From positions 1-50,886 of the forward strand of contig JAFTAP010000071.1 of the NCBI GenBank assembly GCA_017455525.1: a stretch of 50,886 nucleotides of DNA. Reading direction: 5' to 3'. Under the pieces are notes generated by a model. It did not search any database. It was not told the DNA's origin and saw nothing but the letters and a program-made list of their open reading frames with translations. The DNA comes from Lachnospiraceae bacterium. GTDB taxonomy: Bacteria > Bacillota > Clostridia > Lachnospirales > Lachnospiraceae. The position numbers and the translations under genes are program-made. Shown one piece after another: positions 10,124 through 40,173 of the stretch (position 1 is the stretch's first letter; each line of letters starts with the position of its first letter).

Positions 10124-13100
10124 TCAGTCCGCATCTATCGTGGATACGCCGAGCGTCATCTCCTCTAATACATCAAGGAGCATCCTTACAGTGTCGAGAG
10201 ATGTAAGCATCGCCACATTATGCTCTGCGGCGCAGCAGCGTATCGCAACTCCGTCTCCGTAATGCACGCCCGAGAGTATCGCACGGGTATTTATTACATA
10301 GCTCACGTAACCCGCCTTTATGGAATCAAGTATCTCTCCGCTCCCCTCGCTGGGCTTATGCCTGATCCTCGTGCGTATGCCGGCCGACTTAAGATATTCG
10401 CCCGTGAGCGTCGTGGCTTCTATATTGAAGCCCATCTCATAGAACCTGCGTATAAGCGGTATCGTCTCCGTCTTATCCTCATCGGCAACGCTCACGACCA
10501 CGGTTCCGTAATTTTTTAATTTAAGCCCCGACGCCGTCATAGCCTTATATACCGCCCTGTGAAGCTTCCTGTCATAGCCTATCGCCTCTCCGGTTGACTT
10601 CATCTCAGGAGAAAGATATGCGTCCATGCCGTGAAGCTTTGAGAATGAAAACACCGGCACCTTCACATAGTACCTCTCCTTCTCCTTCGCACGTTTCTCC
10701 TTTATTCCCTGTGCCTCAAGCGATACTCCGAGGCTCACCAATGTTGCAATGTCCGCAAGGCTGTATCCCGTAGCCTTTGATAAGAAGGGAACTGTCCTCG
10801 AAGACCTCGGATTCACTTCTATGATATAGACCTGCTCCGTCTCATCCACTATGAACTGGATATTGAAAAGCCCCCTTATGCCTATACCTAATCCGAGTTT
10901 TTCCGTATAATCCGCTATCGTCTCCTTAACTTTATCCGATATGCTGTATGGCGGATAGACGCTTATGGAATCTCCTGAATGAACACCCGTCCTCTCGACA
11001 AGCTCCATTATTCCGGGAATAAATACGCTCTCCCCGTCGCAGACAGCATCAACCTCCACTTCCTTACCCCTGATATACTTATCGACTAATACCGGCTTGT
11101 CCTCGTTAACCTCCACGGCGTTCCTAAGATACTCCGTAAGCTCCTCTTCCTTTCCGACTATCTGCATCGCCCTCCCGCCAAGTACGAAGCTTGGACGCAC
11201 AAGCACCGGATACCCTATATCTCCCGCTGCTTTTATTCCCGCCTCAATAGATGTGACAGCATGTCCCTTAGGCTGCGGTATGCCAAGCGATTCAAGAAGT
11301 CTCTCAAACTGCTCCCTGTCCTCTGCCCTGTCTATCGCGTCACAATCCGTACCAATTATACGCACTCCCCGCTTACGCAGAGGCTCCGCAAGATTTATCG
11401 CCGTCTGCCCGCCAAGCGTCGCTATCACTCCCTCCGGCTTTTCCATCTCTATGACGTTCATCACGTCCTCTACCGTCAAAGGCTCGAAGTAAAGCTTGTC
11501 CGAACAGGTATAATCCGTTGAAACCGTCTCAGGGTTATTATTTATAATGATAGCTTCATATCCTGCTTCCTTTATTGTCTGAACCGCATGAACCGTGGAA
11601 TAATCAAACTCCACGCCCTGTCCGATACGTATAGGTCCTGCACCAAGCACGACCACTTTTTTACTGTCCGATATTACGGACTCGTTTTCATCTTCATAAG
11701 TTGAGTAGAAATACGGCACATAGCTTTCAAACTCTGATGCGCAGGTATCTATCATTTTATATACAGGAGTTATCCGTAAATCCTGCCTTAGTTTATATAC
11801 CTCATCTTCTCTCATATCCCAAAGGCTTGCTATCTCCCTGTCCGAGAAGCCCATGCGCTTTGCCTTATAGAGTTCATCTGTATCACCTTGCTTTGCAATT
11901 AAAGCTTTTTCTTCTATGACTATGTTATTTATCTTTCTGATAAAGAACGCATCTATTCCTGTAGCTTCCTGTATCTTATCTTCGCCCATGCCATGCCTTA
12001 TAAGCTCCGCTATGGCAAAGATACGGTCATCCCTGCCTGATACTATATAGTCCAGAAGCTCATCATCTTTCATACAATCAAACTTCTTATCGTATATATG
12101 CGCATGCCCTGTCTCAAGCGAGCGTACTGACTTTAAAAGGCTCTCCTCGAAGGTACGCCCCACGCTCATAACCTCGCCCGTTGCCTTCATCTGCGTGGAG
12201 AGGGAATTATCCGCTTCCGTGAATTTATCAAAAGGAAATCTCGGCATCTTGGTAACGACATAATCAAGAGCAGGCTCAAAGGATGCCGGCGTGTTCGCAA
12301 GCATTATCTCATCCAAGGTCATGCCTATGCCGATCTTCGCAGATACCCTCGCTATAGGATAACCGCTCGCCTTTGACGCAAGAGCAGACGATCTTGAAAC
12401 TCTTGGATTTACCTCTATCAGATAATACTGAAATGATCTCGGATCAAGCGCAAACTGCACGTTGCACCCGCCCTCTATCTTCAATGCCCTGATGACCTTT
12501 AAGGCACTGTCCCGAAGCATATGGTATTCCTTATTGGTTAATGTCTGTGATGGACAGACGACAATGGAATCTCCGGTATGTATTCCTACGGGATCAAGGT
12601 TTTCCATGTTGCAGATGGTTATCGCCGTATCATTGCTGTCCCTCATCACCTCATACTCTATCTCCTTATAGCCCTTTATGCTCTTTTCAATAAGCACCTC
12701 GTTCACAGGAGATAAGTCGAGAGCATTCTCCATAAGCGGTATGAACTCTTCCTCCGTAGAAGCAAAGCCTCCGCCCGTTCCGCCTAAGGTAAAGGCAGGT
12801 CTTAATACCAAAGGATAACCTATCTCCTCCGCTATCTTAAGCCCCTCTTCAACTGTCGAAGCTGTCTCTGAGGGAAGCACAGGCTCATTAAGCTCCTCAC
12901 AAAGCTCCTTGAATAATTTCCTGTCCTCCGCCCTCTCTATGGATTCACTCTTAGTTCCTAAAAGCTCTGCCCGGCACTCCGCAAGTATTCCCTTCTTTTC
13001 AAGCTGCATTGCAAGGTTGAGTCCCGTCTGACCTCCGATTCCCGGAAGGATCGCATCGGGCCGCTCATGACGGATGATCTTCGCTATATATTCAAGCGTG

Positions 13101-13306
13101 AGAGGCTCCATGTAAACCTTATCCGCTATCTTTGTATCGGTCATTATAGTTGCAGGGTTCGAGTTGCATAAGATTACCTCATAGCCTTCTTCCTTTAAGG
13201 CAAGACAGGCCTGAGTGCCCGCATAATCAAACTCCGCGGCCTGACCTATGACTATAGGTCCCGAACCTATAACTAATATTTTTTTAATATTATCTCTTTT
13301 GGGCAT
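10124..13306 (-). CDS. carB: carbamoyl-phosphate synthase large subunit
   Basis: 1060 residues, full length. It has the two homologous ATP-grasp halves of CarB: the first opens [23 protein letters not shown], the second [21 protein letters not shown] near residue 555. The C-terminal ~130 residues are the MGS-like allosteric domain. It uses ammonia channelled from CarA plus bicarbonate and 2 ATP to make carbamoyl phosphate for arginine and pyrimidines. Its start overlaps the end of carA by 17 bp, so the subunits are translationally coupled and share the carA leader control. Confidence 0.98.
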
Positions 13307-14393
13307 CTGAATAATCCTCCATCATATCCACGAACTCATCAAAAAGGTATGCGCTGTCCTGTGGTCCGGGCGCACTCTCAGGATGATACTGCACCGAAAA
13401 CGCCCTGTCCCTCATACAGCTGACTCCCTCTATCGTATTATCAAGCAGATTTATATGAGTCGCCTCAAGCGGAGTATTTTCAATACTTTCCGTATCCACC
13501 GCATAGGAATGATTCTGTGATGTGATCTCTATCTTATTATTCCTTAGATTCCTTACAGGGTGATTACCGCCCCTGTGTCCGAACTTCAGCTTATAGGTCT
13601 TTGCGCCGTAGGCAAGAGACAATATCTGATGCCCCAGACATATCCCGAATATCGGATAATTCCCTATTAACTCTCTGACTGTATTTATCGTTTCGGGCAC
13701 ATCTTCCGGATCTCCGGGACCGTTTGAAATAAACACGCCATCCGGCTTCATGCTCCTTATCTCATCACACTTTGTATCATACGGAACTACCGTGACCCTG
13801 CACCCTATTTTATTCAATGAACGGACTATATTCGCCTTCATGCCGCAGTCTATCGCAACTACATGATATCTTTCTTCATCAGGCTCAAACTCATTAACCT
13901 TCTTCGTACTCACAAGAGAAACCGCGTCTTTTGGAATTTCTCTACTTTTTAATATCTCAAGTCCTTTACTCAATGAGGTTTCCGCATCGGTAATAAGCGC
14001 CTTCCTGCTGCCAAAATCCCTGATAGAGCGTGTGAGCTTCCTCGTGTCAATCCCCGATATGCCCGGTATTCCATGCTTTTTCATTACTTCATCAAGTGTC
14101 ATCACGCATCTGAAATTCGACGGCTCATCATTATATTCCCTGACGATAAGCGCCCCCATAGATGGCTTATCCGATTCATAATCATCATTTGCCATCCCGT
14201 AATTACCTATAAGCGGATAGGTCATGACCACAGCCTGATAGGTGTACGAAGGATCGGACAGTATCTCCTGATACCCTGCCATAGAGGTATTGAATACTAT
14301 CTCGCAAACCCTCTCACCGCTTCCTCCGAAGCCATAGCCATAATACTCCTGCCCGTCCTCCAGTATTACCTTCCTGTCATAATTCCTAAGCAT
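13290..14393 (-). CDS. carA: carbamoyl-phosphate synthase small (glutaminase) subunit
   Basis: 367 residues from ATG 14393, which follows AGGGAGA at suitable spacing; the upstream GTG at 14420 is less likely. The N-terminal domain ([31 protein letters not shown]) is typical of CarA. The class I amidotransferase domain has the nucleophile in GICLGHQ and the His-Glu in [10 protein letters not shown]. It hydrolyses glutamine and passes ammonia to CarB. The gene lies behind one of four shared promoter-hairpin modules (14428-14503), linking it to the nitrogen regulon. Confidence 0.98.
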
Positions 14394-14427: not shown

Positions 14428-14503
14428 AAAGACGCTTAGGAATCCCCAAGCGCCTTTGCTTTTCATCACCAAAGATTTTAATCCATAATAACGGATTTTG
14501 CAA
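14428..14503 (-). promoter_or_regulatory. nitrogen-type promoter plus attenuator hairpin, carA copy
   Basis: Minus strand: -35 TTGCAA (14498-14503, directly after the paaI-like stop codon), 17-bp spacer, -10 TAAAAT (14475-14480). The expected start is near 14467. The transcript then carries GAAAAGCAAAGGCGCUUGG. Its AAAGGCGCUUGG arm pairs with the UAAGCGUCUUU arm (14428-14457, about 12 bp), followed by a U-rich run: a rho-independent terminator shape in the leader. The competing fold AAGC-[AAAGGC]-GCUU (14448-14461) has A1 and G4 in a six-base loop, as in ANTAR-protein targets. Confidence 0.8.
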
Positions 14504-18448: not shown

Positions 18449-19198
18449 CTACAGAACCTTATCGAGAAAGGACTTTGTCCTTTCCTCTTTAGGATTACTC
18501 AAAAGCTCGTCCGGCGTACCTTCTTCAATGATATATCCGCCATCCATAAATATCACTCTGTCCGCCACCTCTCTCGCAAATCCCATTTCGTGAGTCACGA
18601 TCACCATAGTCATGCCCTCGGACGCAAGCTCTTTCATTACTGCCAAAACCTCCCCTACCATCTCCGGGTCAAGGGCAGAGGTCGGTTCGTCGAAAAGCAT
18701 AATACGCGGCTGCATACAAAGCGCCCTCGCTATAGCCACCCTTTGCTTCTGTCCGCCCGATAACTGACTGGGGTATGCCGCAGACTTTTCGGATAGTCCA
18801 ACCTTTTCAAGCATTTCATATGCTCTGTTCTTAGCCTCGGCCTGTGAGCATTTCTTAAGCTGAACCGGTGCGAGCGTCATATTTTCCATGACATTAAGAT
18901 TATTGAATAAGTTAAAATGCTGGAAGACCATTCCTATATTCTCCCGCACCTTATTCAGATCAACCTTCCTTGCGGTAATATCACAGCCGTCAACTATTAT
19001 CTTCCCTCCGCTTGCCTCTTCAAGACGGTTCAGGCATCTTAAAAACGTGGATTTTCCGGAGCCTGAAGGACCGATGACGACAACAACCTCGCCCTCTTTA
19101 ACATCAACTGAGATTTCCTTAAGCACCTCTAAATCGCCGAATGATTTCTTCAGTCCGACAGTCTTTATCTTTATTTCTCTTTCATCACTGACGCCCAA
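18449..19198 (-). CDS. polar amino acid ABC transporter ATPase
   Basis: 249 residues from the TTG at 19198, 7 bp after AAAGGAGG; an earlier TTG at 19216 lies before that site and is unlikely. Walker A is [10 protein letters not shown]-loop FQHFNLF, signature [15 protein letters not shown], Walker [16 protein letters not shown]-loop VTHEM: a GlnQ/HisP-type ATPase with all catalytic residues. It overlaps the permease gene by 14 bp. It forms a complete importer with the permease and binding lipoprotein upstream. The nitrogen-type leader at amt suggests glutamine or a related amino acid as substrate. Confidence 0.95.
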
Positions 19199-19859
19199 CG
19201 TTAAGCCTCCTTTCAACCAGCTTCGCTGTACGTGAAAGTATCGTTATAACAATAAGATACATAATCCCGACTATAGCCCATGTCTGAAAAGCCATGAATG
19301 TATTAGCCTGTACATTCTTTGCGGTATTGACAAGCTCAGGGAAGCCTATTACAGAAAGAATGGATGTGTCCTTCAGCGTTATTATGAATTGATTAATAAT
19401 GCTCGGTATCATAGTACGTATAGCCTGCGGTAGCACGACTTTTCTCATTGATGTAGAATATGAAAGTCCCAGCGATCTCGCCGCCTCCATCTGCCCTGCG
19501 TCTACCGACTGGATGCCGGCCCTTATGATTTCAGACATATATGCGCCGCAGTTAAGCGCCAGACAAGCCGTTCCTGCCTGCAGGGCGCTAAGCGTCATAT
19601 TGAATCCGCCTATTATAGTGTTAAAAAGATATGGTATGCCAAAGTAAACAAAAAAAGCAAGCACTATCATCGGCACTCCCCTGATCACATCAACAAAAAT
19701 CTGCGACACGACATTGCAGATCCTGTTTTTTACCACGCTTAGTATGCCGAATAAAAGCCCTATTATACAGGCGAAAAACAAGCCGAGGAGAGCAAGCAGG
19801 AGCGTCCTCCCCATAGCCTGAACCAGCATTCCGCCATAAGTACCTATGATACGTACCAT
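19185..19859 (-). CDS. polar amino acid ABC transporter permease
   Basis: 224 residues from ATG 19859, preceded by AAGGGGTGG. About five membrane helices; the HisM/GlnP-family coupling signature is present as [27 protein letters not shown] (split over ~105-131). It partners the ATPase downstream and the lipoprotein upstream. A single permease gene suggests a homodimeric channel. Confidence 0.94.
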
Positions 19860-19929
19860 TATTCCACCCCTTCTTAATAATTGCAGCCGACATATCAATG
19901 CCTTAATATGCCGACCGCATGTACCGCCA

Positions 19930-20739
19930 TTATCCCAGATATTTCTTAATTATTTCATCATACTTTCCGTTTGCCTTTATATTGGCAAGCCCTGCATTAA
20001 ACATATCTATCAGCTCCTGATTATCTGCATTAAATACTGCAAACCCATACGCCGCAGGCTCATTGCCCGTATCATGAAGAAGCTTCATTCCAAGGTTTCC
20101 CTCTTTTATATTTGCAGCCATTATAGGGGTGTCGTCTATTACTGCCGCAACCTGACCGCCCTCTACCGCCTGATACATGGTAGGCGAGTCCTCAAAATAT
20201 GTGATGGTAAAGTCATATTTGTCTGCCATGCTCTCCGCATATTCAGCGCTCATGGTGCCTGTTTTTACAGCGATAGCTCCTCCGTTTAAATCTTCAAAAC
20301 CCGCTATGGATGAATCCTTCGCTACAGCCATGCACTGATTCGCATCATAATAGCCATCCGAGAAGATCCATCCTGATTCCTTTCTCTCATCAGTAATGGA
20401 AGCCCCTGCTATCATGCCGTCTGCCTGCCCGGCCTGGCATGCTGCTATTGACGCATCCCAGCCTAATATCTGAAGATCATACTTAAATCCCTGATCCTCT
20501 GCGACAGCAGCCAGAATATCCATATCTATCCCTACGAACTCTCCGTTATCAGCCGTATACTCAAAGGGCTTAAAAGCTGAATCCGTGGCTATCACCCATA
20601 CCTTGTCAGATGATGATCCTTTTGCGGGAGCCTCTGCAGTCGTCTCCTGCTCTACGCTTCCCGTCTGCTCAGACGCCCCGCATCCGATTGCCGAAAACAC
20701 CATCAGCATAGCCAAAAAAGTGGTAATTATCTTCTTCAT
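19930..20739 (-). CDS. amino acid ABC transporter substrate-binding lipoprotein
   Basis: 269 residues from the ATG at 20739, 8 bp after GAGGAGG; ATG 20745 is also possible. The signal peptide KKIITTFLAMLMVFSAIGC ends in a lipobox Cys, so the protein is a membrane-anchored lipoprotein. The family 3 solute-binding fold is shown by FKPFEYTADNGEFVGIDMDILAAVAE and GAIAVKTGTMSAEYAE. It delivers a polar amino acid to the permease. It starts 9 bp after the peptidase C26 gene. Confidence 0.94.
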   Translation of the reverse strand: MKKIITTFLAMLMVFSAIGCGASEQTGSVEQETTAEAPAKGSSSDKVWVIATDSAFKPFEYTADNGEFVGIDMDILAAVAEDQGFKYDLQILGWDASIAACQAGQADGMIAGASITDERKESGWIFSDGYYDANQCMAVAKDSSIAGFEDLNGGAIAVKTGTMSAEYAESMADKYDFTITYFEDSPTMYQAVEGGQVAAVIDDTPIMAANIKEGNLGMKLLHDTGNEPAAYGFAVFNADNQELIDMFNAGLANIKANGKYDEIIKKYLG

Positions 20740-20754
20740 GCTCATTTCCTCCTC

Positions 20755-21468
20755 TTAAACCTTTTCTTTACTTATACAGGCATCTATGAATGCCCGGACT
20801 ATCCTCCTGCTATCCTCATCCTTCTCATAGGAAAATTCAGGATGCCATTGTACGCCGACTGCAAAGCTTTTTTCCTTTACTGCTATTGACTCTACGATGC
20901 CATCCTCCGATACAGCCATGATTTCAATGCGATCAGGCACATTCTTAACCGCCTGATGATGATAGCTGTTTACTTCATGCCCCCCCGCTCCTATTATGTC
21001 CGATAGAAGAGTATCCTTCATAACCTCTATCCGGTGAGCCGTCCTGTCATAAGGCGGGCTCATATGATGCTCCACGCTCGTCCCGTGCTCACTCGGAATA
21101 TCCTGATACAAGGTGCCGCCGAGGAATGCGTTTATGAACTGTATGCCCCTGCATATACCAAGCACAGGCATATCGTCATCGAGCGCCCAGCCTAAAAGGA
21201 TGCTCTCCATCTTATCTCTTAAAGGACATATCACCCCGCATTTATCTGCAGGCTTCTCCCCGTATAATGACGGTGAGATGTCATGTCCGCCGGTAAGAAG
21301 CAGTCCGTCACACAGTTCATATGCCTTGCGCAGCTCTTCCTCATTATCCGTTAAAGGAAGCATGATAGGAAGAGCTCCGCTATCTTCTATTGCCTTCATA
21401 TATCCCGGAAGCATCCAATAGCTTTCCTTCTCATCATCATATAAAGGAATAAGCCCTATCACTACCAT
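20755..21468 (-). CDS. peptidase C26 / gamma-glutamyl hydrolase-like class I amidotransferase
   Basis: 237 residues, start ATG 21468 after AAGGAGA. The class I glutaminase fold is seen with TGGHDISPSLYGE (~59-71), nucleophile Cys106 in GICRGIQ and His-Glu in VQWHPEF (~213). This is the PuuD-like family that releases glutamate from gamma-glutamyl compounds. It lies directly between amt and the amino acid importer and should be co-transcribed, so it may free nitrogen or glutamate from an imported or internal gamma-glutamyl compound. The actual substrate is not shown. Confidence 0.88.
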   Translation of the reverse strand: MVVIGLIPLYDDEKESYWMLPGYMKAIEDSGALPIMLPLTDNEEELRKAYELCDGLLLTGGHDISPSLYGEKPADKCGVICPLRDKMESILLGWALDDDMPVLGICRGIQFINAFLGGTLYQDIPSEHGTSVEHHMSPPYDRTAHRIEVMKDTLLSDIIGAGGHEVNSYHHQAVKNVPDRIEIMAVSEDGIVESIAVKEKSFAVGVQWHPEFSYEKDEDSRRIVRAFIDACISKEKV

Positions 21469-23408: not shown

Positions 23409-23482
23409 AAAGGCGCCTGAGAATCTTCCCAAGCGCCTTTGCTTCATGCTATGATTTTAACCTAGCCCCTATAATTTTACAA
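23409..23482 (-). promoter_or_regulatory. nitrogen-type promoter plus attenuator hairpin, amt copy
   Basis: Minus strand: -35 TTGTAA (23477-23482), 17-bp spacer, -10 TAAAAT (23454-23459). The leader carries GAAGCAAAGGCGCUUGGG. AAAGGCGCUUGGG pairs with the CUCAGGCGCCUUU arm (23409-23440, about 13 bp), followed by UACUUUUA. The alternative AAGC-[AAAGGC]-GCUU hexaloop is present. The start codon of amt is ~170 nt downstream. Confidence 0.8.
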
Positions 23483-28056: not shown

Positions 28057-29568
28057 TCACGACACCCTTATATTAGTAAATCCCATAAGATACTCGTCTG
28101 CCTCTGCGGCACAGGCTCTGCCCTCGGCTATTGCCCAGACGACGAGGGACTGCCCTCTGTGCATGTCTCCTGCCGTAAATATACGCTCCTTTGAGGTGTG
28201 GTAGCTGTCCTGAGTTGTCTTTATCACATTTCTCTCCGTAAGCTCCACGCCAAAGGCTTCCGCTGTATAGCTCTCACAGCCTGTGAAACCGGCAGCTATA
28301 AGAAGCAGATCACATGGTATCTCCTGCTCACTGCCTTCCACAAGCTTCATGTTACGACCTTCAAATGCGACCTTCGAGGTAACTATCTTTTTAAGATTTC
28401 CCTTCTTGTCGGTGATATAATCCTTCACCGTAGTCTCATATATCCTCGGATCATGTCCGAAAAGCTCTATGGCTTCCTCATGCCCGTAGTCTGTCTTTAA
28501 GACCTTCGGCCACTCCGGCCAGGGATTGCCCTCTGTCCTGTCTTTCGGCGGTTCAGGCATCATCTCTAAAGCAGTGACAGACTTGCAGCCATGCCTTATC
28601 ACTGTGCCTATACAGTCATTTCCGGTATCTCCGCCGCCGACTACGACCACATTCTTACCCTTTGCGGAAATAAAATCCTTCCCGCTCATGAAATCAGAAA
28701 CGCTCCGATCACCTATCCCATCCTCTCTGTCAATAAGAGATTTAGTAGTGCTCTTTAAGAAATCAACGGCATAATAAATCCCGCTTATCTTATCCAAATC
28801 CGCGCCCTTAAGAGACCTCGCCTGCTTCGCTCCACAGGCAAGAATCACAGCGTCGTAATCACGCATAAGTTCATCAGCCGGTATGTCCCTGCCGACATTC
28901 ACTCCGGTAATAAAGGAAACTCCCTCGTCCTCCATAAGCTTCCTTCTCCGCTTAATGACAGATTTATCAAGCTTCATATTAGGTATGCCGTACATGAGAA
29001 GCCCTCCGATGCGGTCGTCCCTCTCATAGACGGTAACACTGTGTCCTCTGTGATTCAGCTCATCCGCCGCGGCAAGCCCGGCAGGACCGGAGCCAACGAC
29101 AGCTACCCTCTTACCGCTCCTGACCATAGGTATCCTGGGCTTGATATATCCCTGCTCAAAGGCTTTCTCTATGATATAAAGCTCATTGTCATGCACTGTC
29201 ACGGCATCCCCGTGCTCGCCGTTTATACACGCCTTCTCGCAGAGCGCAGGACAAACCCTTCCCGTAAACTCAGGGAAGTTACTGGTCTTTATAAGTCTTG
29301 ATAAAGCATGCTCCGCATGACCGTGATACAGCGCATCGTTCCACTCAGGGATAAGATTATGCAAGGGACAGCCCGTCACCATGCCCTTAAGTCTCATAGC
29401 CGACTGGCAAAAAGGCACACCGCAGTCCATGCATCTCGCTCCCTGCTCCATCCTCTCCTTATCAGAAAGCGGAAGATGAAATTCCTTAAAATTCTTCACC
29501 CTTTCCTTTACTGGAACGTCGATATTATTCATTCTCTCATATTCTAAAAATCCCGTAGCCTTACCCAT
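28057..29568 (-). CDS. gltD: glutamate synthase small subunit (NADPH)
   Basis: 503 residues. The N-terminal cysteine motif ARCMDCGVPFCQ and CPLHNLIPEWN, with FTGRVCPALCEKACINGEHG, binds 4Fe-4S clusters. FAD-binding VAVVGSGPAGLAAADEL (~150) and NADPH-binding VVVVGGGDTGNDC (~300) domains follow. It supplies electrons to GltB for making glutamate from glutamine and 2-oxoglutarate. It sits 250 bp after gltB, with a large palindrome between the two. Confidence 0.97.
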   Translation of the reverse strand: MGKATGFLEYERMNNIDVPVKERVKNFKEFHLPLSDKERMEQGARCMDCGVPFCQSAMRLKGMVTGCPLHNLIPEWNDALYHGHAEHALSRLIKTSNFPEFTGRVCPALCEKACINGEHGDAVTVHDNELYIIEKAFEQGYIKPRIPMVRSGKRVAVVGSGPAGLAAADELNHRGHSVTVYERDDRIGGLLMYGIPNMKLDKSVIKRRRKLMEDEGVSFITGVNVGRDIPADELMRDYDAVILACGAKQARSLKGADLDKISGIYYAVDFLKSTTKSLIDREDGIGDRSVSDFMSGKDFISAKGKNVVVVGGGDTGNDCIGTVIRHGCKSVTALEMMPEPPKDRTEGNPWPEWPKVLKTDYGHEEAIELFGHDPRIYETTVKDYITDKKGNLKKIVTSKVAFEGRNMKLVEGSEQEIPCDLLLIAAGFTGCESYTAEAFGVELTERNVIKTTQDSYHTSKERIFTAGDMHRGQSLVVWAIAEGRACAAEADEYLMGFTNIRVS

Positions 29569-29818: not shown

Positions 29819-32800
29819 TTACTTAGCTATCGCATTAAACGCCTCGATCTCCGCGTTTTCCCTGGATAATCCCTGCTCCTCAAACCGCCCTATCGCCGTA
29901 AGCATCATCTGATAATCCCTCGGTATTATCTTTTTAAAGTCCGATATATAGGACTTAAAATTCTTAAGTATCTCTCCTGCAAGCTTAGATCCTGTCTCCT
30001 TCTCATAGTCTGAAAGAATACCTTTCAGCTCCTCTATATCATACTTATCCCGAAGCTCCTCCATGTTCACCATGTCTTTATTTATCCTTCGATACAGCGA
30101 ATGATCCTTGTCGAGCACATAAGCTATTCCGCCGCTCATGCCCGCCGCGAAATTCTTGCCGGTAGAACCTAGTATCACAGCCCTGCCCCCTGTCATGTAT
30201 TCAAGACCGTGATCTCCCACGCCCTCGCATACGGCAGTCGCTCCCGAATTTCTCACGCAGAACCTTTCACCCGCTACCCCGCAGATGTAAGCCTTCCCGG
30301 AGGTAGCGCCATAGAGCGCAACGTTTCCAATGATGATGTTCTCGGAAGCATTAAATATTGATTCTTTAGGAGGAATCACTATGAGCTTTCCCCCGGAAAG
30401 GCCCTTGCCAAAGCCGTCGTTCGCATCCCCGTAAAGGCGTACGGTTACGCCCTTAGGAATAAACGCCCCGAACGACTGTCCGCCGCCGCCTGCGGCTTCT
30501 ATCAGATAGCTGTCATCATCAAGCTTATCCTGCCCGTATCTTCTTGTTATCTCAGAGCCGAATATAGTCCCGAAAGCCCTGTCGGTACTGGATACATCAA
30601 GCCTGACGCTTCTCTCATTCTTATCAAGCATGGGAAGCAGCACCCTCTCATCAGGCGTGCGCTCCGTATGGAAATCATAGAGGCTGTCCTTATCAAAATG
30701 TCTCCTGTCATATCCCGCAAAGGCAGGATTTAATATGTATGACATATCAACCCGCTCAGCCCTTGATAAAGCAAGCTTGTCCTTAATCTTAAGACAATCA
30801 GAACGTCCGACCATCTCATCTATAGTCCTGAATCCAAGCTTCGCCATTATCTCTCTCAGCTCTTCTGCTATGAACCTCATGAAGTTCATTATATATTCAG
30901 GCTTGCCCGTGAATCTTTTCCTGAGTTTTTCATTCTGCGTTGCTATCCCTACGGGGCAGGTGTCCTTAGAGCAAACCCTCATCATCATACAGCCCATGCA
31001 TACGAGAGGCGCCGTAGCGAATCCGAATTCCTCCGCCCCAAGCAGTGCGGCTATAGCGACATCCCGTCCCGACATAAGCTTACCGTCGGTTTCAAGCACT
31101 ACCCTGTCCCTAAGCCCGTTCTCTATAAGGCTGTGATGCGCCTCAGCGACTCCAAGCTCCCACGGAAGCCCCGCCCCATGCACCGATGAAAAGGGAGCAG
31201 CCCCCGTGCCGCCGTCATAGCCTGATATTAGAATAAGACCTGCCCCCGCCTTAGCAACGCCGGACGCTATAGTGCCTACTCCCGACTCCGACACGAGCTT
31301 CACGGATATCCTTGCGTCACGGTTAGCATTCTTAAGGTCGTAAATAAGCTCCGCCAGATCCTCTATCGAATAAATATCATGGTGTGGCGGTGGCGAGATA
31401 AGAGAAACTCCCGGAGTAGAGCATCTTATCTTTGCTACCCACGGATAGACCTTCTTTCCCGGCAGATGTCCGCCCTCGCCGGGCTTTGCTCCCTGAGCCA
31501 TCTTTATCTGTATCTCCTTAGCGGAATTTAAGTAAGCAGACGTCACTCCGAATCTCCCCGATGCTACCTGCTTTACTGCCGAGTTCCTGATAGTACCGAA
31601 ACGCTCCGGATCCTCGCCTCCCTCGCCCGTATTTGATTTACCGCCAAGTGTGTTCATTGCTATCGCTATAGTCTCATGCGCTTCTTTGGATAACGAGCCG
31701 TAGGACATAGCCCCGACCTGAAAACGCTTTACTATGTCATCGACGCTTTCAACCTCATCTATAGACACGCCATCTCCCACCGGAGCAAAGTCAAGCAACC
31801 CCCTTAAAGTATGCGGTCTTGATTCATCATCAACCATTCCCGAATATACCTTGAACTGCTCATAGTCATTATTCCTCACAGCCTGCTGTAAATTAACGAT
31901 AGTCTCAGGATTATAGAGATGATCCTCCTTATCCTTACCGCTCCTTAAGCTGTGAAAGCCTGTAGAATCCAGCGTAGTATCTACGGTAAGTCCCAGCGGA
32001 TCAAAGGCGTGGTCATGCCTGAAGGCTGTCTCCTGCTCGATCTCCGCTATGCCTATGCCACCTACACGGCTCACTGTGCCCGTGAAGTATTTATCGATAA
32101 CTTCCCTTGAAAGCCCTATAGCCTCGAATATCCTTGCCGACTGATAAGACTGTATAGTGGATATCCCCATCTTCGCAGCTATCTTCACTACGCCGCCAAG
32201 CAAGGCTTTATTATAGTCGTCTATTGCAGTATGGTAATCCTTATCGAGTATCCCCTTGTCTATAAGCTCCGCTATGCATTCATGCGCAAGATACGGATTT
32301 ATAGCCCTCGCGCCGAAGCCCAAAAGCGCGGCCATCTGATGCACGTCTCTCGGCTCACCGCTCTCTAAAATCAAAGACACCGCGGTCCTTTTCTTCGTCC
32401 TGACTAAATGCTGCTCAACAGACGATACGGCAAGTAATGAAGGAATAGGAACATGATTCTCATCAACTCCCCTGTCAGATAAGATGATTATATTGCACCC
32501 GTCAGCCGCAGCCCTGTCAACCGCTATATCGAGCTGCTCCAAAGCTTTTTCAAGCGAGGTATTCTTATAGTAGAGCATAGAGATAACTCTTGCCTTATAG
32601 CCCGGTCTGTCAAGCGACCTTATCTTAAGCAGGTCAACGCCTGTAAGTATCGGGTGGTTTACTTCAAGCACCGCACAGTTTCCGCTCTTTTCATTCAGAA
32701 GATCGCCGTCAGAGCCTATATATACGGTAGTGTCGGTTACGACCTTCTCCCTTAAGGAATCTATAGGCGGATTCGTAACCTGAGCGAAAAGCTGCTTGAA

Positions 32801-34381
32801 ATAATTAAATAAAAGCTGATGATCTTTAGACAGCACCGCAAGAGGCACGTCATGCCCCATAGATACGGTAGGCTCCACGGCATTCTCCGCCATCGGAAGT
32901 ATCTGCTTCATCACGTCCTCATAGGTATAGCCGAACGCCTTATACAGTTTATCCCGCATAGCCTGGTCATGTGTTTCGATCTTTTTATTCGGTATAGGAA
33001 GCGTAGCAAGGTGCAGCAGATTACTGTCTATCCACTCCCCGTAAGGCATACGCTTTGAATACCTTTCCTTACATTCTTCGTCTGATATGATCCTCTGCTG
33101 CTTAGTATCGACAAGGAGCATCTTCCCCGGTTCAAGCCTTGATTTCTTTACGATATGCTCCGCCGGAATGTCCAGTACGCCAACCTCGGACGATAGTATA
33201 AGCCTTCCGTCGTCCGTCACATAATATCTTGAAGGCCTTAATCCGTTGCGGTCAAGCGTTGCTCCGAGTACCTCACCGTCAGAGAATATGATAGCCGCGG
33301 GACCGTCCCAGGGCTCCATCATCGTCGCATAGTAGTGATAGAAATCCTGCTTCTCCCTGTCCATGTATTCCCCGTGCTTCCAGGGCTCAGGAATCGTCAC
33401 CATCATGGCAAGCGGAAGCTCCATCCCGTTCATGTATAAGAATTCAAGAGTATTATCAAGCATCGCAGAATCAGAACCCGACGATGATATGACAGGATAT
33501 ATCTTGTCGATATCATCCTTAAGGAGATTAGGACGCATGGTTTCCTCTCTAGCAAGCATCCTGTCCGCATTGCCCCTTATCGTATTTATCTCGCCATTAT
33601 GCGCTATCATACGGTAAGGATGAGCCCTGTTCCATGACGGCGTAGTGTTAGTGGAAAACCTCGAATGAACTATCGCTATCGCAGTCTCATAATCAGGATC
33701 TCTTAAGTCATCATAAAATTCTCTTAACTGTCCCACAAGGAACATGCCTTTATATACGATAGTACGTGACGACAAGGAGCAGATATACGTGTCCTCCGAA
33801 GACTGCTCAAACTCACGCCTTACGACATAAAGCCTTCTGTCAAAATCTATGCCCTTACCAACTCCAGCCGGACGCTCTATTACGCACTGTTCTATTGCGG
33901 GCATGCAGTCTACGGCGACCTGCCCTAAAATCTCCGGCTTAGTAGGCACCCTTCGCCAGCCTAAGAGCTTCATTCCCTCCTTCTCTGCTATAAGCTGCAG
34001 CATTCTCTTTGCGAAGGTCCTCTTAAGACTGTCAGACGGAAGGAAGAACATGCCTACGCCATAGTCGCCCTCATCTCCTATATCAATCCCTGCATCGGGC
34101 AGAGCCTTAGAGAAGAACTTATGAGATATCTGAAGCAGTATCCCTACTCCGTCTCCGACCTTTCCCGTAGCGTCCTTTCCCGCCCTGTGCTCAAGCTTCT
34201 CTACTATTGACAGCGCATCGGAAAGCACCTTAGAGTCCTTATGTCCGTCGATATTTACGATTGTCCCTATGCCGCAGGCGTCATGCTCAAAGTTTTCCCA
34301 AGGCATAGCTGGGTCTCGCCTGAGGCTTGCCGGTACCTTTCTGATTTTGCTAATATTATTGTAATATTTTTCATTTCCCAT
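29819..34381 (-). CDS. gltB: glutamate synthase large subunit
   Basis: 1520 residues, full length. A 35-residue propeptide precedes Cys36 (HDACGIG), the N-terminal nucleophile after processing. The class II glutaminase domain is followed by the central domain, the FMN-binding synthase domain (GGKSNTGEGGEDPERF, KPGEGGHLPG) with cysteines CMGCMMMRVCSKDTCPVG for the 3Fe-4S cluster, and the C-terminal beta-helix (GLSGGKLIV, GMSGGIAYV). With GltD it recycles glutamine from GlnA to glutamate. It starts 33 bp after pyrG, so it is probably in one transcript with it. Confidence 0.98.
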   Translation of the reverse strand: MGNEKYYNNISKIRKVPASLRRDPAMPWENFEHDACGIGTIVNIDGHKDSKVLSDALSIVEKLEHRAGKDATGKVGDGVGILLQISHKFFSKALPDAGIDIGDEGDYGVGMFFLPSDSLKRTFAKRMLQLIAEKEGMKLLGWRRVPTKPEILGQVAVDCMPAIEQCVIERPAGVGKGIDFDRRLYVVRREFEQSSEDTYICSLSSRTIVYKGMFLVGQLREFYDDLRDPDYETAIAIVHSRFSTNTTPSWNRAHPYRMIAHNGEINTIRGNADRMLAREETMRPNLLKDDIDKIYPVISSSGSDSAMLDNTLEFLYMNGMELPLAMMVTIPEPWKHGEYMDREKQDFYHYYATMMEPWDGPAAIIFSDGEVLGATLDRNGLRPSRYYVTDDGRLILSSEVGVLDIPAEHIVKKSRLEPGKMLLVDTKQQRIISDEECKERYSKRMPYGEWIDSNLLHLATLPIPNKKIETHDQAMRDKLYKAFGYTYEDVMKQILPMAENAVEPTVSMGHDVPLAVLSKDHQLLFNYFKQLFAQVTNPPIDSLREKVVTDTTVYIGSDGDLLNEKSGNCAVLEVNHPILTGVDLLKIRSLDRPGYKARVISMLYYKNTSLEKALEQLDIAVDRAAADGCNIIILSDRGVDENHVPIPSLLAVSSVEQHLVRTKKRTAVSLILESGEPRDVHQMAALLGFGARAINPYLAHECIAELIDKGILDKDYHTAIDDYNKALLGGVVKIAAKMGISTIQSYQSARIFEAIGLSREVIDKYFTGTVSRVGGIGIAEIEQETAFRHDHAFDPLGLTVDTTLDSTGFHSLRSGKDKEDHLYNPETIVNLQQAVRNNDYEQFKVYSGMVDDESRPHTLRGLLDFAPVGDGVSIDEVESVDDIVKRFQVGAMSYGSLSKEAHETIAIAMNTLGGKSNTGEGGEDPERFGTIRNSAVKQVASGRFGVTSAYLNSAKEIQIKMAQGAKPGEGGHLPGKKVYPWVAKIRCSTPGVSLISPPPHHDIYSIEDLAELIYDLKNANRDARISVKLVSESGVGTIASGVAKAGAGLILISGYDGGTGAAPFSSVHGAGLPWELGVAEAHHSLIENGLRDRVVLETDGKLMSGRDVAIAALLGAEEFGFATAPLVCMGCMMMRVCSKDTCPVGIATQNEKLRKRFTGKPEYIMNFMRFIAEELREIMAKLGFRTIDEMVGRSDCLKIKDKLALSRAERVDMSYILNPAFAGYDRRHFDKDSLYDFHTERTPDERVLLPMLDKNERSVRLDVSSTDRAFGTIFGSEITRRYGQDKLDDDSYLIEAAGGGGQSFGAFIPKGVTVRLYGDANDGFGKGLSGGKLIVIPPKESIFNASENIIIGNVALYGATSGKAYICGVAGERFCVRNSGATAVCEGVGDHGLEYMTGGRAVILGSTGKNFAAGMSGGIAYVLDKDHSLYRRINKDMVNMEELRDKYDIEELKGILSDYEKETGSKLAGEILKNFKSYISDFKKIIPRDYQMMLTAIGRFEEQGLSRENAEIEAFNAIAK

Positions 34382-36019: not shown

Positions 36020-36099
36020 ATCTGCCTCCCTGCCCCATGTTCACTTTTGCATGTGACCGACTCCAACTGCCTATCGGTATATCCGTCCGTTATGATCAT

Positions 36100-37692
36100 C
36101 TAAATCGCGTCTCCTGACTTTCCGTAATTTGAAAGCACCCTAGCGGAAGGGTCGTTCACATTGCAGCCCTCCCACTCCTTATTAGGCATCCAGAAATCCT
36201 GTATCATCCCGGCATTGCCAGGATAATATTCTTCAAATATCTCCCTATACAGCAGGCTTTCTTTCGTAAACGGCGTGCAATACGGATACTTATCTGCCGC
36301 ATCACTAAGATCGGTGTCGCTGTATCTGCCCTCTGCATATTCCTTTAAGTCATCTACGAGCGAGTGTCCTACCGCATCGGAAAACGCCGCCTTATCTCGC
36401 CATAAGATGCTGTCAGGTAATATTCCGTCCTTTTCAAAAGCATGGCGAAGAAGAAATTTTCCGCACCCGTATGTATTCATCTTAATTGCGGGATCTATGC
36501 TCATCACATACTTTACAAACTCCGTATCCCCGAAGGGCACTCTCGCTTCTAAGGAGTTAACGGATATGCTCCTGTCGGCCCTGAGCACATCATACATATG
36601 TATCTCATCTATCCTTTTCTTAGACTCCGCCTGAAAAGCCGAAGCGTCAGGGGCAAAGTCCGTGTACTTATAGCCGAAAAGCTCATCCGATATCTCCCCC
36701 GTAAGCAGGACTCTCACATCCGTATTCTCATGTATCGCCTTACAGCAAAGATACATTCCCATAGACGCCCTAATGGTCGTGATATCCCAAGTGCCTAAAA
36801 GCTTTATAAGCTCAGGCAGCGTGTTTATTATTTCCTCCTTCGTCATATAAAACGGAGTATGCTCCGCTCCGATATAGTCGGCGGCTTCCTTTGCGAAGCC
36901 TAAATCTATCGGATCCAAATCCATGCCTATAGCAAAGGTCCTTATCTTCTTCCCAAGTATCTTCGCTGATATGGCGCATACAAGCGAGGAATCAAGCCCT
37001 CCAGACAGCAAAAAACCTAGCGGAGCATCAGCGTCAAGCCTGTCCTCTACTGCCTTGATAAGTCTCTCCCTTATTCCCTCGCATATCTCATCGACATCAC
37101 CCTTAATAAATTCCTTAACCTCCGTGAGATTCTCAAACCTGTGAAATGAACCGTCAGCATAATAATGTCCCGGCGGAAAAGGCATGACCTTGTCACATAG
37201 CTTCACGAGGTTCTTTGGCTCGGATGCGAAGGCTATGCTGCCCGATACCTTAAGATAACCAAAATAGAGCGGTCTTATCCCTATCGGATCTCTTGCGGCT
37301 ATATAGCTGTCCTTTGCGGAATCATAGATCACAAGAGCAAATTCCGAACCAAGCATAGGAAACATCGATAAACCGTATTCATGATACAAGGGAAGCAGTA
37401 TCTCGCAGTCAGAATCGCTTGCGAAATCATATCCCTTTGTCTTCAATTCCTCTCTGATCTTACGAAATCCATATATCTCGCCGTTGCACACGACCTTATC
37501 CGATCCCAGCGAGAAAGGCTGCATGCCCTCAGGAGTGAGTCCCATTATCGCAAGCCTGTGGAAGCACATATACCCCGAAGCCGTCTCCTCTATCCTGCTG
37601 TCGTCAGGTCCCCTTGATACCGTCTCGTTAAAGCTCTCTATGAAGTCCTCTCTCCTAAGGCTCTTATCCGTCAATGTCATTATCGAACACAT
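36100..37692 (-). CDS. asnB: asparagine synthase (glutamine-hydrolysing)
   Basis: 530 residues. It begins MCSIM, so Cys2 becomes the N-terminal nucleophile. The class II glutaminase domain (SRGPDDS, CFHRLAIMG, CNGEIYGFRKI) is followed by the synthetase domain with the pyrophosphate loop LLSGGLDSSLVCAI (~227) and LTGEISDELFGY. It makes asparagine from aspartate, glutamine and ATP. Its leader carries a nitrogen-type promoter and hairpin (37723-37797), giving it a promoter separate from glnA. Confidence 0.96.
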   Translation of the reverse strand: MCSIMTLTDKSLRREDFIESFNETVSRGPDDSRIEETASGYMCFHRLAIMGLTPEGMQPFSLGSDKVVCNGEIYGFRKIREELKTKGYDFASDSDCEILLPLYHEYGLSMFPMLGSEFALVIYDSAKDSYIAARDPIGIRPLYFGYLKVSGSIAFASEPKNLVKLCDKVMPFPPGHYYADGSFHRFENLTEVKEFIKGDVDEICEGIRERLIKAVEDRLDADAPLGFLLSGGLDSSLVCAISAKILGKKIRTFAIGMDLDPIDLGFAKEAADYIGAEHTPFYMTKEEIINTLPELIKLLGTWDITTIRASMGMYLCCKAIHENTDVRVLLTGEISDELFGYKYTDFAPDASAFQAESKKRIDEIHMYDVLRADRSISVNSLEARVPFGDTEFVKYVMSIDPAIKMNTYGCGKFLLRHAFEKDGILPDSILWRDKAAFSDAVGHSLVDDLKEYAEGRYSDTDLSDAADKYPYCTPFTKESLLYREIFEEYYPGNAGMIQDFWMPNKEWEGCNVNDPSARVLSNYGKSGDAI

Positions 37693-37722
37693 AACCGCTC
37701 TCCCTCTTCTGCAAATAACGAC

Positions 37723-37797
37723 AAAGGCGCCCGGATTTCTCCAAGCGCCTTTGCTTTCATATTTAGAAATTCTAATTCATCATCCCGATTTTTGCAA
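37723..37797 (-). promoter_or_regulatory. nitrogen-type promoter plus attenuator hairpin, asnB copy
   Basis: Minus strand: -35 TTGCAA (37792-37797), 17-bp spacer, -10 TAGAAT (37769-37774). The leader carries GAAAGCAAAGGCGCUUGG. AAAGGCGC pairs with GCGCCUUU (37723-37752) with an inner GGA-GAAA-UCC hairpin, followed by GUCGUUAUUU. The alternative AAGC-[AAAGGC]-GCUU hexaloop is at 37743-37756. The asnB ATG is ~30 nt further. Confidence 0.8.
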
Positions 37798-37832
37798 CAA
37801 TGAATTTTAATTTTACTTTAACCTCTTTTATA

Positions 37833-39932
37833 TCACCTAAGCGAGAACAGTATCTGTCCGTAGGTCGGGTAAGGCAGATAACCGTCGGGGATTATCTTCT
37901 CCGCCTTATCTACGAAGGTGCGGAGCTCATCCATGTCCTTAAGTATCACATCATGATAGAATCTCGCCGCCTCAAGCGGATCCTCTATCTTCTCCGCCCT
38001 CTCCGTATCGTCACGGAGCTGATGTATCTTATTGCCTATTATCTCGCTCGTATCATCCAGAGTATTTATTATATCCGACTCATATGAAATCGGGAGCGAA
38101 GGAAGAAGCTGTTTCTTCTTAAGCGCCTCATTCGTCACGTCCTTCATGTAGGAGACAAGCCCCTGCGTGAAGTCCTTCCTTATCATCTCCTGCAAAGTAA
38201 GCGCCTCTATATGGATTTCCTTATTGTAATTCTCAAGGAAGATCTCATATCTCGACTCTATCTCCACATCGGATAACACCTCATGCTTCTTAAAAAGCTC
38301 TCTGTTCTTCTCGGACAATAAGTGCGGCATCGCATCGGGAACTGATTTCAGATTGTAAAGCCCTCTCTTCTCCGCCTCCTCAAGCCATTCATCAGAATAA
38401 CCGTTGCCGTTGAATATTATCCTCTTATGCTCTTTTAACATATCCTTTAAAAGTTCATCTATTGCCTCGTCTAGCTTATCTGCAGGAACGTCCTTAAGCC
38501 TGTCGTATATCTTGTCCAGCTCCTCTGCCACAGCCGTATTAAGGGCTATATTCGGCTGTGCGACAGACAGCGCCGATCCCGGCATCCTGAACTCGAACTT
38601 ATTCCCTGTAAAGGCAAATGGAGAAGTCCTGTTCCTGTCCGTAGTATCCTGCGTGATATGCGGAAGCACATGTGCCCAGCTCATCTTCGTGGCTCCGGCT
38701 CCGTCGAACTTCGTGCCCTCTTCTATAGACTTGAGCACGCCCGCAAGCTCATCACCTACGAATACCGAAATGACTGCAGGCGGAGCCTCATTCGCACCAA
38801 GTCTGTGATCATTTCCCGCAGTAGCGACAGAAAGCCTTAACAGATCAGCATATTCATCAACTGCTGATATGACCGCCATAAGGAAAATAAGGAACTGCTT
38901 ATTATCCTGAGGTGTCTTGCCGGGATCTAGCAGGTTCTCTCCCTGATTCGTGCTTATCGACCAGTTATTGTGTTTACCTGAACCATTTATGCCGTCAAAA
39001 GGCTTCTCATGCAGAAGGCATGCATATCCGCATTTATCAGCCACCTTCTTCATTATCTCCATAGTAAGCTGGTTGTGGTCTACCGATACATTCGCAGTCT
39101 CGAATACAGGAGCCAGCTCATGCTGCGCAGGCGCAACCTCATTGTGCTTCGTCTTTGCGGGCACGCCAAGCTTCCACAGCTCTCTGTCAAGCTCATGCAT
39201 GAACTCAGCGACCTTTGGCTTAAGCACTCCGAAGTAATGATCCTCCATCTCCTGTCCCTTAGGCGCAGGCGCTCCTATAAGCGTCCTTCCGCACATGACA
39301 AGATCCTTTCTCTTAAGATATTTCTCTTTATCAATAAGGAAATACTCCTGTTCCGAGCCTATGGTCGTGTTAACCCTCTTAACGTCCTTTCCGAGAAGCT
39401 TCAAGACCTTCACTGCGGCATCAGAGAGCGCATCCATAGACCTTAAAAGCGGAGTCTTCTTATCAAGCGCCTCTCCGCCGTAAGAACAGAATGCAGTAGG
39501 TATATACAGCGTCCCGTCCTTTACGAAGCAGGGTGAAGAAGGATCCCATGCCGTATAGCCTCTAGCCTCAAAGGTTGCCCTAAGTCCTCCCGACGGAAAG
39601 CTTGATGCATCAGGCTCGCCCTTTACAAGCTCCTTACCCGAGAACTCAAGCAGCACCTCGCCGCTTCCCGCAGGATATATGAAGCTGTCATGCTTTTCCG
39701 CAGTAAGTCCCGTCATAGGCTGGAACCAATGCGTGAAATGCGTCGCTCCGTTTTCAAGCGCCCACTCCTTCATTGCAGCAGCAACCGTATTGGCCACGTC
39801 AAGCGCCAAGTGCGTGCCGTTCTCCGCTGTCTCCTTTACAGCCTTGTAGACCTCCTTGGGAAGCCTCTCCTGCATCACCCTGTCTCCGAATACGAGACTT
39901 CCGTAGATTTCCTTGATCGATTCCTGTGCCAT
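37833..39932 (-). CDS. glnA: type III glutamine synthetase
   Basis: 699 residues, much longer than GSI (~450) and typical of GSIII. The family markers are FTHWFQPMTG near 80, the GSIII-type EQEYFLIDKE, KTKHNEVAPAQHELAP, and the ATP-site region NGSGKHNNWSIST, with a long C-terminal helical extension. It condenses ammonia and glutamate to glutamine as a dodecamer. It leads the minus-strand run glnA-asnB-pyrG-gltB-gltD and has the nitrogen-type leader at 40078-40152. Confidence 0.98.
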   Translation of the reverse strand: MAQESIKEIYGSLVFGDRVMQERLPKEVYKAVKETAENGTHLALDVANTVAAAMKEWALENGATHFTHWFQPMTGLTAEKHDSFIYPAGSGEVLLEFSGKELVKGEPDASSFPSGGLRATFEARGYTAWDPSSPCFVKDGTLYIPTAFCSYGGEALDKKTPLLRSMDALSDAAVKVLKLLGKDVKRVNTTIGSEQEYFLIDKEKYLKRKDLVMCGRTLIGAPAPKGQEMEDHYFGVLKPKVAEFMHELDRELWKLGVPAKTKHNEVAPAQHELAPVFETANVSVDHNQLTMEIMKKVADKCGYACLLHEKPFDGINGSGKHNNWSISTNQGENLLDPGKTPQDNKQFLIFLMAVISAVDEYADLLRLSVATAGNDHRLGANEAPPAVISVFVGDELAGVLKSIEEGTKFDGAGATKMSWAHVLPHITQDTTDRNRTSPFAFTGNKFEFRMPGSALSVAQPNIALNTAVAEELDKIYDRLKDVPADKLDEAIDELLKDMLKEHKRIIFNGNGYSDEWLEEAEKRGLYNLKSVPDAMPHLLSEKNRELFKKHEVLSDVEIESRYEIFLENYNKEIHIEALTLQEMIRKDFTQGLVSYMKDVTNEALKKKQLLPSLPISYESDIINTLDDTSEIIGNKIHQLRDDTERAEKIEDPLEAARFYHDVILKDMDELRTFVDKAEKIIPDGYLPYPTYGQILFSLR

Positions 39933-40077
39933 AAATAATGCCCTCCCTCTTTTGTGAGACGCTTAAGCGCCTTGCCTGCTTGCCACTGCGCCACGATGTG
40001 GTGTCTCCTCGGTGACAAGCCTTGTACTGAATAGCCACTATCGGCTATTACCTGCGGAATTTTCTTATCATAAAGAT

Positions 40078-40152
40078 AAAGGCGCCGGGATCACTCCAAG
40101 CGCCTTTGCCTTTCACGAAAAAGATTGTATACCTATATCAAGGATTTTGCAA
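40078..40152 (-). promoter_or_regulatory. nitrogen-type promoter plus attenuator hairpin, glnA copy
   Basis: Minus strand: -35 TTGCAA (40147-40152), 17-bp spacer, -10 TACAAT (40124-40129). The leader carries GAAAGGCAAAGGCGCUUGG. AAAGGCGC pairs with GCGCCUUU (40078-40107) with inner GGA-GUGA-UCC, followed by AUCUUUAUG. The hexaloop AAAGGC is retained; its stem is AGGC/GCUU with one G-U pair. The glnA ATG is ~145 nt downstream. Confidence 0.8.
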
Positions 40153-40173
40153 CAATTATTTTTCATTCGGTGT

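Follow-up and report, generated by a model that had tools for sequence, protein, structure and literature searches.

Results

Four leaders ahead of nitrogen and glutamine genes

The window, that is, the whole 50,886-nucleotide stretch of Lachnospiraceae DNA that was analysed, carries four leaders at 14428-14503, 23409-23482, 37723-37797 and 40078-40152, all on the minus strand and all present where the original prediction had placed them. Each combines a predicted promoter, a small hexaloop hairpin (P2) and a terminator-like stem-loop, and the operons that they head are carAB, amt, asnB-pyrG-gltBD and glnA:

14475..14503, minus strand: carA promoter (-35 TTGCAA at 14503-14498, 17 bp, -10 TAAAAT at 14480-14475)
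14448..14461, minus strand: carA leader hexaloop hairpin P2, AAGC[AAAGGC]GCTT
14428..14457, minus strand: carA leader terminator stem-loop, 5' arm common with P2, U-rich tail to about 14418
13290..14393, minus strand: carA, carbamoyl-phosphate synthase small subunit (profile match; the start codon is a chosen one)
10124-13306, minus strand: carB, downstream of carA (profile match)
23454..23482, minus strand: amt promoter (TTGTAA, 17 bp, TAAAAT)
23431..23444, minus strand: amt leader P2, AAGC[AAAGGC]GCTT
23409..23440, minus strand: amt leader terminator stem-loop
21487..23355, minus strand: amt, ammonium transporter-PII domain fusion (profile match)
20755-21468, 19930-20745, 19185-19898 and 18449-19216: peptidase C26/GATase and amino-acid ABC transporter genes closely 3' of amt
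37769..37797, minus strand: asnB promoter (TTGCAA, 17 bp, TAGAAT)
37743..37756, minus strand: asnB leader P2, AAGC[AAAGGC]GCTT
37723..37752, minus strand: asnB leader terminator stem-loop, U tail broken
36100..37692, minus strand: asnB (profile match)
34415-36019, 29819-34381 and 28057-29568, minus strand: pyrG, gltB and gltD, downstream of asnB (profile matches)
40124..40152, minus strand: glnA promoter (TTGCAA, 17 bp, TACAAT)
40098..40111, minus strand: glnA leader P2, AGGC[AAAGGC]GCTT
40078..40107, minus strand: glnA leader terminator-like stem-loop, one mismatch, weak U tail
37833..39932, minus strand: glnA, 699-aa GSIII-like glutamine synthetase (weak NCBIfam matches)

The shared promoter, which is of the sigma-70 type with TTGYAA and TANAAT separated by 17 bp, occurs five times on the two strands of the window, and four of these copies are the leader sites. 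That nitrogen-assimilation or glutamine-using genes stand behind all four leaders was borne out by profile searches, which identified carA, the amt-PII fusion, asnB and a glutamine synthetase; in the last case NCBIfam models match the 699-aa product weakly, below their cut-offs, and from its length we take it to be of the GSIII-like type. Just upstream of the glnA start, at 39957-39976, lies an extra inverted repeat (minus strand, GGCAAGGCGCTTAAGCGTCT) that resembles the module arm.

Other parts of the original description needed adjustment. The hairpin had been placed about 10 nt past the predicted start; counting +1 as the 7th base past the -10 box, with both promoter and start being predictions, P2 begins at +8 in carA, +4 in amt and +7 in asnB and glnA. 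The repeated arm element is present at the four sites, in the exact form GAAAGC at asnB only, the three others reading GAAAAGC, TGAAGC and GAAAGGC. A terminator-like hairpin with a U-rich tail describes carA and amt, where the tail is fair, better than asnB and glnA, where it is broken, the glnA stem containing one mismatch as well.

Exact copies of AAAGGCGCTTGG number five in the 2.72 Mb genome: the four leaders and one on contig C7 that has neither an adjacent promoter nor a pairing 3' arm. With up to one mismatch it occurs at 28 places, as against 6 for a reversed-pattern control, and a covariance model of the module (E ≤ 0.01) retrieves four sites from this genome, all within the window. 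A combined promoter and terminator scan of 36000-41000 called the asnB terminator and missed that of glnA; its totals there were close to chance (6 promoters vs 7.5, 4 terminators vs 3.7), so that the scan alone proves nothing.

Two mutually exclusive folds

P2 consists of 3-4 bp closing a six-base loop, AAGC[AAAGGC]GCUU, and overlaps the terminator fold at all four window sites. The two structures are mutually exclusive and both use the 5' arm, which would explain why this arm is invariant, a feature for which the earlier reading had offered no reason, just as it had lacked a likely agent. On its own P2 has a calculated energy of -1.8 to -2.0 kcal/mol, compared with -18.6 to -21.9 kcal/mol for the terminator hairpin counted from the loop onward (four sites), and P2 would therefore need a protein to win. 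A longer predicted fold of the carA leader also allows pairing between the A-rich 5' letters and the U tail; these letters of the carA P2 thus lie outside the modelled terminator stem while other pairing is still possible for them.

An A at the first and a G at the fourth loop position, over a stem of at least 3 bp, are found at the four window sites and at 88 of 90 sites from the family. The 5' part common to EutV-controlled terminators has been given as AGCAANGRRGCUY (PMC3369931), and AGCAAAGGCGCUU agrees with it at 12 of 13 positions, the glnA site at 11 of 13. Judged from its sequence, a hexaloop hairpin overlapping the 5' part of a terminator in this way looks like the P2 half of an ANTAR antiterminator. 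Rfam models for riboswitches, glutamine RNAs and the T-box gave no match, either in the window at gathering score or in 37600-40300 at E ≤ 1.

The module in the genus, the family and beyond

Allowing one mismatch, AAAAGCAAAGGYGCTTNG was found at 31 places in 22 of the 48 genomes of the genus (three of them window sites), compared with a single place for the reversed pattern. The genes behind these sites are a GSIII-like glnA in 14 cases, asnB and amt in four each, gltB in three, carA in one, dapF-dapL in four and a gene that we could not name in one. The dapF-dapL pair, for diaminopimelate synthesis, is headed by the module in four congeners (L075, L079, L090, L093), the identity of both genes being profile-confirmed at one locus, and is an unexpected member of a nitrogen regulon.

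The covariance model, made from 31 sequences, matched 28 of 48 genus and 115 of 299 family genomes at E ≤ 0.01, and at E ≤ 0.001 it matched 18 of 291 genomes in a sample of the class, four of these from Lachnospiraceae; as 18 candidates were scored per genome in the family and class searches, absences carry little weight. From the family we took the sites with a locus or with E ≤ 5.3e-4, which are part of the sites in the 115 genomes. In these 88 family loci, cmsearch returned 92 matches, made up of two reverse-strand shadows, two loops with G first and 88 hexaloops with A1 and G4. The enrichment before nitrogen genes of Lachnospiraceae for which a covariance-model search had been proposed is indeed present: 83 of the 88 sites precede relatives of nitrogen or glutamine genes, and five have no match by blastx. 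These relatives are glnA (37), amt (17), purF-like genes (8), gltB (8), pyrG (5), carA (4) and asnB (4), each named after the best blastx match within 1.5 kb to 15 proteins of the own genome; the matches at L162, L176, L183 and L211 are weak or distant. Taken with the genus, where 30 of the 31 sites head nitrogen or glutamine genes if dapF-dapL is counted, a nitrogen regulon probably controlled by early transcription attenuation, as originally proposed, is still the best reading of the sequences.

A pattern scan retrieved at least 119 stretches. Among the 80 listed, 44 are labelled Lachnospiraceae and six more carry the names of genera belonging to it (Sellimonas, Blautia, Eisenbergiella, Roseburia); others come from Faecalibacterium, Gemmiger, Ruminococcus flavefaciens and Clostridium. 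Five proteobacterial stretches among those listed (L304, L310, L323, L324, L337) score 7-8.5 for the promoter and lack a reference gene downstream; they are probably chance matches.

Covariation in relatives

The 3' arm had been described as varying while it keeps its pairing. In the four window copies by themselves it varies on one side of the pairs only, and it takes the sequences of relatives to reveal two-sided changes. The genus alignment holds 31 sequences, namely 30 pattern-picked sites and the window amt site (L084, with no terminator 3' arm and an unnamed gene, was omitted), and its conservation is thus partly the result of selection by pattern. In it 98.8% of the terminator cells are paired, with 16 two-sided changes against 5.4 in shuffled alignments, while the P2 stem, paired in 124 of 124 cells, has no two-sided change and does no better than shuffles, so that the genus set is uninformative on P2 pairing. 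In the family alignment the terminator has 97.9% of cells paired and 61 two-sided changes, compared with 10.7 after shuffling, and beats all slid versions.

The family sites were obtained with a model that leaves P2 unpaired yet carries its sequence. Counts on 90 rows omit the reverse-strand shadows L149 and L150 and include L200 and L218, which are not among the 88. The first loop position is A in 88 of 90 rows and the fourth G in all 90 (G4 was demanded by the P2 anchor, and no row failed it). Contrary to the A1 rule, L200 and L218 have the loop GAAGGC. Against shuffles, pairs 3 and 5 of P2 gave P values of 0.0015 and 0.0025 and pair 4 gave 0.13 in these 90 sites. A larger set of 105 sites added 12 from other families and three more from the family (L385-L387), with L401, L406 and L408 omitted for an anchor that was absent or far from the match. 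Here pair 4 is a standard pair in 92 sites (AU 76, CG 9, GU 5, GC 2; shuffled mean 76.3, maximum 86) and pair 5 in 78 (shuffled mean 67.6, maximum 77), both exceeding all 5000 shuffles; pair 6 is not above chance. Since the 5' letters of pairs 4 and 5 lie outside the modelled terminator stem, this covariation backs the alternative hairpin. Of the nine CG cases at pair 4, eight belong to other families, with three in a single genus, so that they do not represent independent events; relatedness inflates the covariation counts.

These data bear on three explanations that dispense with an RNA-binding regulatory protein. A trans-acting small RNA pairing with the invariant 5' arm, with no protein involved, would fit an arm that is far more conserved than its 3' partner; it is highly improbable when the third loop position varies (A 74, G 10, C 3 and U 3 in the 90 family sites), when seven of the 15 genomes with more than one site at hand contain different loops, and when P2 stem pairs covary and the motif tracks an ANTAR gene (below). 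A constitutive 5' hairpin, acting as an mRNA stabiliser or as a fixed early terminator with no regulator, agrees with the extreme 5' position and with U tails that are weak in the asnB and glnA leaders, but we consider it very unlikely, for it leaves unexplained the conservation of bases 5' to the terminator stem, the P2 covariation, the near-fixed A1 and G4, the co-occurrence with ANTAR genes and the set of genes involved.

The third is a DNA operator just past the start site, bound by a repressor or activator such as one of the GlnR type, whose box has the motif TGTNAN7TNACA. The fixed position relative to the promoter speaks for it, as does the number of one-mismatch GlnR-type boxes in the window (23 vs 14.8, with 3 of 100 shuffles as high); however, what the compensating changes maintain is base pairing in the RNA and not one particular DNA sequence, which makes such an operator hardly credible. 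A GlnR/TnrA box in particular was rejected, as there is no exact copy in the window and no one-mismatch copy in the four promoters, the nearest of the latter kind lying inside asnB at 37675-37691.

A single hexaloop close to the promoter

The accepted model of ANTAR antitermination involves two hairpins, the first of which recruits the protein while the second has yet to be transcribed. In our leaders the first, P1, is missing. P1-like hairpins upstream of P2 (stem of at least 3 bp, linker of 3-14 nt) occur in 4 of 88 family sites compared with 3.9 in shuffled sequences, and with linkers of 0-25 nt in 5 of 88 compared with 7.7; a second hexaloop downstream of P2 occurs in 8 of 90, compared with 9.3. 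The distance from the -10 box to P2 is 9-13 nt in the window and, measured from the end of the box, 9-12 nt in 61 of the 80 family sites (of 88) with a promoter score of at least 9; at 9-13 nt P1 cannot fit in the RNA. Two eut regions served as controls, and the P1 scan was positive in one of them. In the eutS leader of Acetoanaerobium noterae (L394) it finds P1 as CAC[ATAGGC]GTG, with a 23-nt linker that is seen when linkers up to 25 are allowed and is beyond the limit of 14, and P2 lies 48 or 62 nt past TAAAAT boxes; it saw no clear dual hexaloop in the eut region of congener G017 (L392). Scanning two 20-kb regions of G342 gave no hexaloop pair.

With P1 absent and no space left for it by the promoter, the dual-hexaloop class of ANTAR target was rejected for this module. 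A canonical target whose P1 was overlooked, either because transcription starts further upstream or because P1 is irregular, could be argued from the two stem-loops of the described ANTAR antiterminators (PMC3369931, PMC8164766), from the extra hexaloop or second module of some related leaders, and from P1-like hairpins with stems of at least 5 bp, which slightly exceed shuffles (1 vs 0.6 and 2 vs 1.1, n = 88). Against P1-like hairpins at shuffled levels on both sides of P2, and against a -10 box far closer to P2 than in the eutS control, it seems highly improbable.

An ANTAR protein encoded behind type I glnA

The genome encodes one protein with an ANTAR domain (PF03861), on another contig, scoring 56.4 bits against a curated cut-off of 27.3. 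One such protein is present in each of 40 of the 48 genus genomes (this one included) and in none of 14 control genomes. Its gene follows a type I glnA (PF00120, TIGR00653) at a distance of 2 nt, and the same gene lies directly upstream in 57 of 60 ANTAR ORFs from the genus and family loci. The protein matches EutV (6wsh) with E 1.5e-6 and, weakly, the nitrate regulatory protein 4akk, the putative antiterminator 1s8n and AmiR. Residues were counted in 58 ORFs found by HMM search, i.e. the 60 minus L061 and L244, which have a normal receiver. Those that contact G4 or form the plug in EutV (roles from PMC8934654) are kept in 58 of 58: K149, E160, an aromatic residue at 164 (H in 44, this protein among them, Y in 11, F in 3) and M172. 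Several other residues with which EutV makes contact differ in most ORFs (R168, N173, R175, R177) or vary (R142, K143, K147), with K143 replaced by D and K147 by E in our protein.

The column of the phospho-acceptor Asp holds another residue in 56 of the 58 ORFs (G in this protein), Asp in one (L249) and a gap in one (fragment L053). The Response_reg profile has no match in the protein at E ≤ 0.001, whereas two EutV-type controls match. A phospho-activated response regulator of the EutV type was rejected on these two grounds; since the receiver-like part cannot take phosphate, a partner probably governs the activity of the protein, in analogy to AmiC-AmiR. L249, the glnA-linked ANTAR gene with Asp at this column, is from G265, a genome that has the module (L158). 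Other ANTAR types exist among the congeners: G017 has a EutV-like protein encoded beside eut (L061/L392), and G022 and G023 have proteins with a different N-terminal type (L069, L071); the covariance model did not find the module in these three genomes at E ≤ 0.01.

Module and ANTAR gene occur together. At E ≤ 4e-4 the motif is found in 67 of the 265 family genomes with an ANTAR gene and in 0 of the 34 without; at E ≤ 0.01 the figures are 111 of 265 and 4 of 34 (Fisher p 5.6e-4). With 18 candidates scored per genome, the motif was not found at the latter threshold in 154 of the 265 ANTAR-bearing genomes. Two of the four ANTAR-less genomes with a match at that threshold, G300 (L385, L386) and G248 (L387), have a genuine-looking module at a promoter, and three incomplete congeners (61, 77 and 88% complete) have a strong motif with no ANTAR gene detected. 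Such genomes may hold an ANTAR gene that went undetected, or their modules may respond to a different factor. In the congener G010 the glnA-ANTAR operon is itself preceded by a weaker module (L128, E 0.0027), which would make a feedback loop; before the corresponding operon of our genome the covariance model detected none at E ≤ 0.01.

Discussion

With a probability of roughly four in five, we believe that each leader is a transcription attenuator operated by an ANTAR protein through a single hexaloop at the 5' end of the transcript. Polymerase would start at the promoter and complete the terminator hairpin within about 50 nt, so that by default transcription would tend to stop early, near +45 to +50. 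The first half of the terminator could instead refold as P2, whose loop offers A1 and G4, the bases that ANTAR proteins recognise. An active ANTAR protein would hold P2 and block the terminator, and carAB, amt, asnB-pyrG-gltBD and glnA would be transcribed together. The trigger, guessed from this set of genes, may be a shortage of glutamine or ammonium, and control of the protein probably lies with a partner or ligand, not with a kinase. Gene order makes type I GlnA the obvious candidate, and perhaps it is the partner.

The antiterminators already described for EutV at eut, NasR at nasF and AmiR at amiE (PMC3369931) resemble the present leaders in the A1/G4 hexaloop laid over the terminator 5' arm, in the nitrogen genes that they control and in the presence of an ANTAR gene in the genome, but they have two hexaloops where we find one, 4-8 nt from the predicted start. 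The Desulfotomaculum regulons (PMC3369931, Fig. 9) likewise place several nitrogen transcription units under ANTAR-type leaders; those were found with a dual-hairpin model, while our modules are single-hairpin and promoter-proximal. One hexaloop is already the unit in the extra hexaloop of EutX and in stem-loops of Mycobacterium tuberculosis, where the dual motif is not always obeyed (PMC8934654); EutX is however a sequestering RNA, and the M. tuberculosis sites lie at ribosome-binding sites or in 5'-UTRs, whereas here the hexaloop overlaps a terminator at the start. As for the protein, the N-terminal pseudo-receiver of AmiR is not phosphorylatable either (PMC8934654); the neighbour is AmiC in that system and type I glutamine synthetase, a putative partner, in ours.

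We lean slightly towards the broader view that one 5'-end hexaloop suffices in Lachnospiraceae and that a non-phosphorylated ANTAR protein, together with glutamine synthetase, acts as the master nitrogen control. In surface plasmon resonance the affinities of EutV for P1 and for P2, each on its own, are similar (PMC8934654). Published observations that count against action by a single hexaloop are the loss of EutV control in vivo on deletion of P1 and the clearly better binding of two stem-loops than of one (both PMC3369931), as well as the value of about 12 uM for NasR on P2 alone (PMC7496416). In the 2022 paper on the EutV-RNA structure the binding unit is a single hexaloop; its authors suggest that natural single sites may exist where the transcribing polymerase imposes no time limit, and they call for further bioinformatic and experimental work (PMC8934654). 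Targets in Actinobacteria were curated for dual stem-loops (PMC8164766), and since the searches described in PMC3369931 and PMC8164766 required two stem-loops, leaders with one would have been passed over.

Our module looks like a stripped-down, one-hairpin form of ANTAR antitermination that recurs in many relatives. Its numerous natural leaders couple a single hexaloop to a terminator, the setting in which timing is most critical, and offer a natural test of what single hexaloops can do. In clostridial glnA-glnR/nitR operons an ANTAR-type gene adjoins type I glnA. A literature search that lay mostly outside subscription journals found no earlier single-hexaloop terminator leader and no description of the element in Lachnospiraceae, nor did it yield a published RNA target for the glnA-glnR/nitR operons. 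If our reading is correct, a major gut family has an RNA-based nitrogen regulon; on the broader view, the pair made of an ANTAR protein and glutamine synthetase would be the master control of nitrogen in this dominant family of the gut and rumen.

Variants of the module were also seen. The -35 box is TTGCAA (TTGTAA at 23482) in the window and in many congeners, and TTGACA at most family sites; with a loose -10 box at 16-18 nt the window counts are 6 for TTGCAA and 3 for TTGACA, and TTGCAA may be a form of the promoter peculiar to the clade, or else an additional signal. An extra hexaloop or terminator-like hairpin lies upstream of the main module in L124, L125 and L126, before a gene that we could not name, and in the amt leaders L159, L281, L283, L299 and L336. 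Tandem hexaloop-terminator units precede a single gene in L385 (G300:C5:18732-21040) and L393 (G236:C56:23068-26000), and in the latter two full modules stand before a glnA-like gene, as if they were two gates in series.
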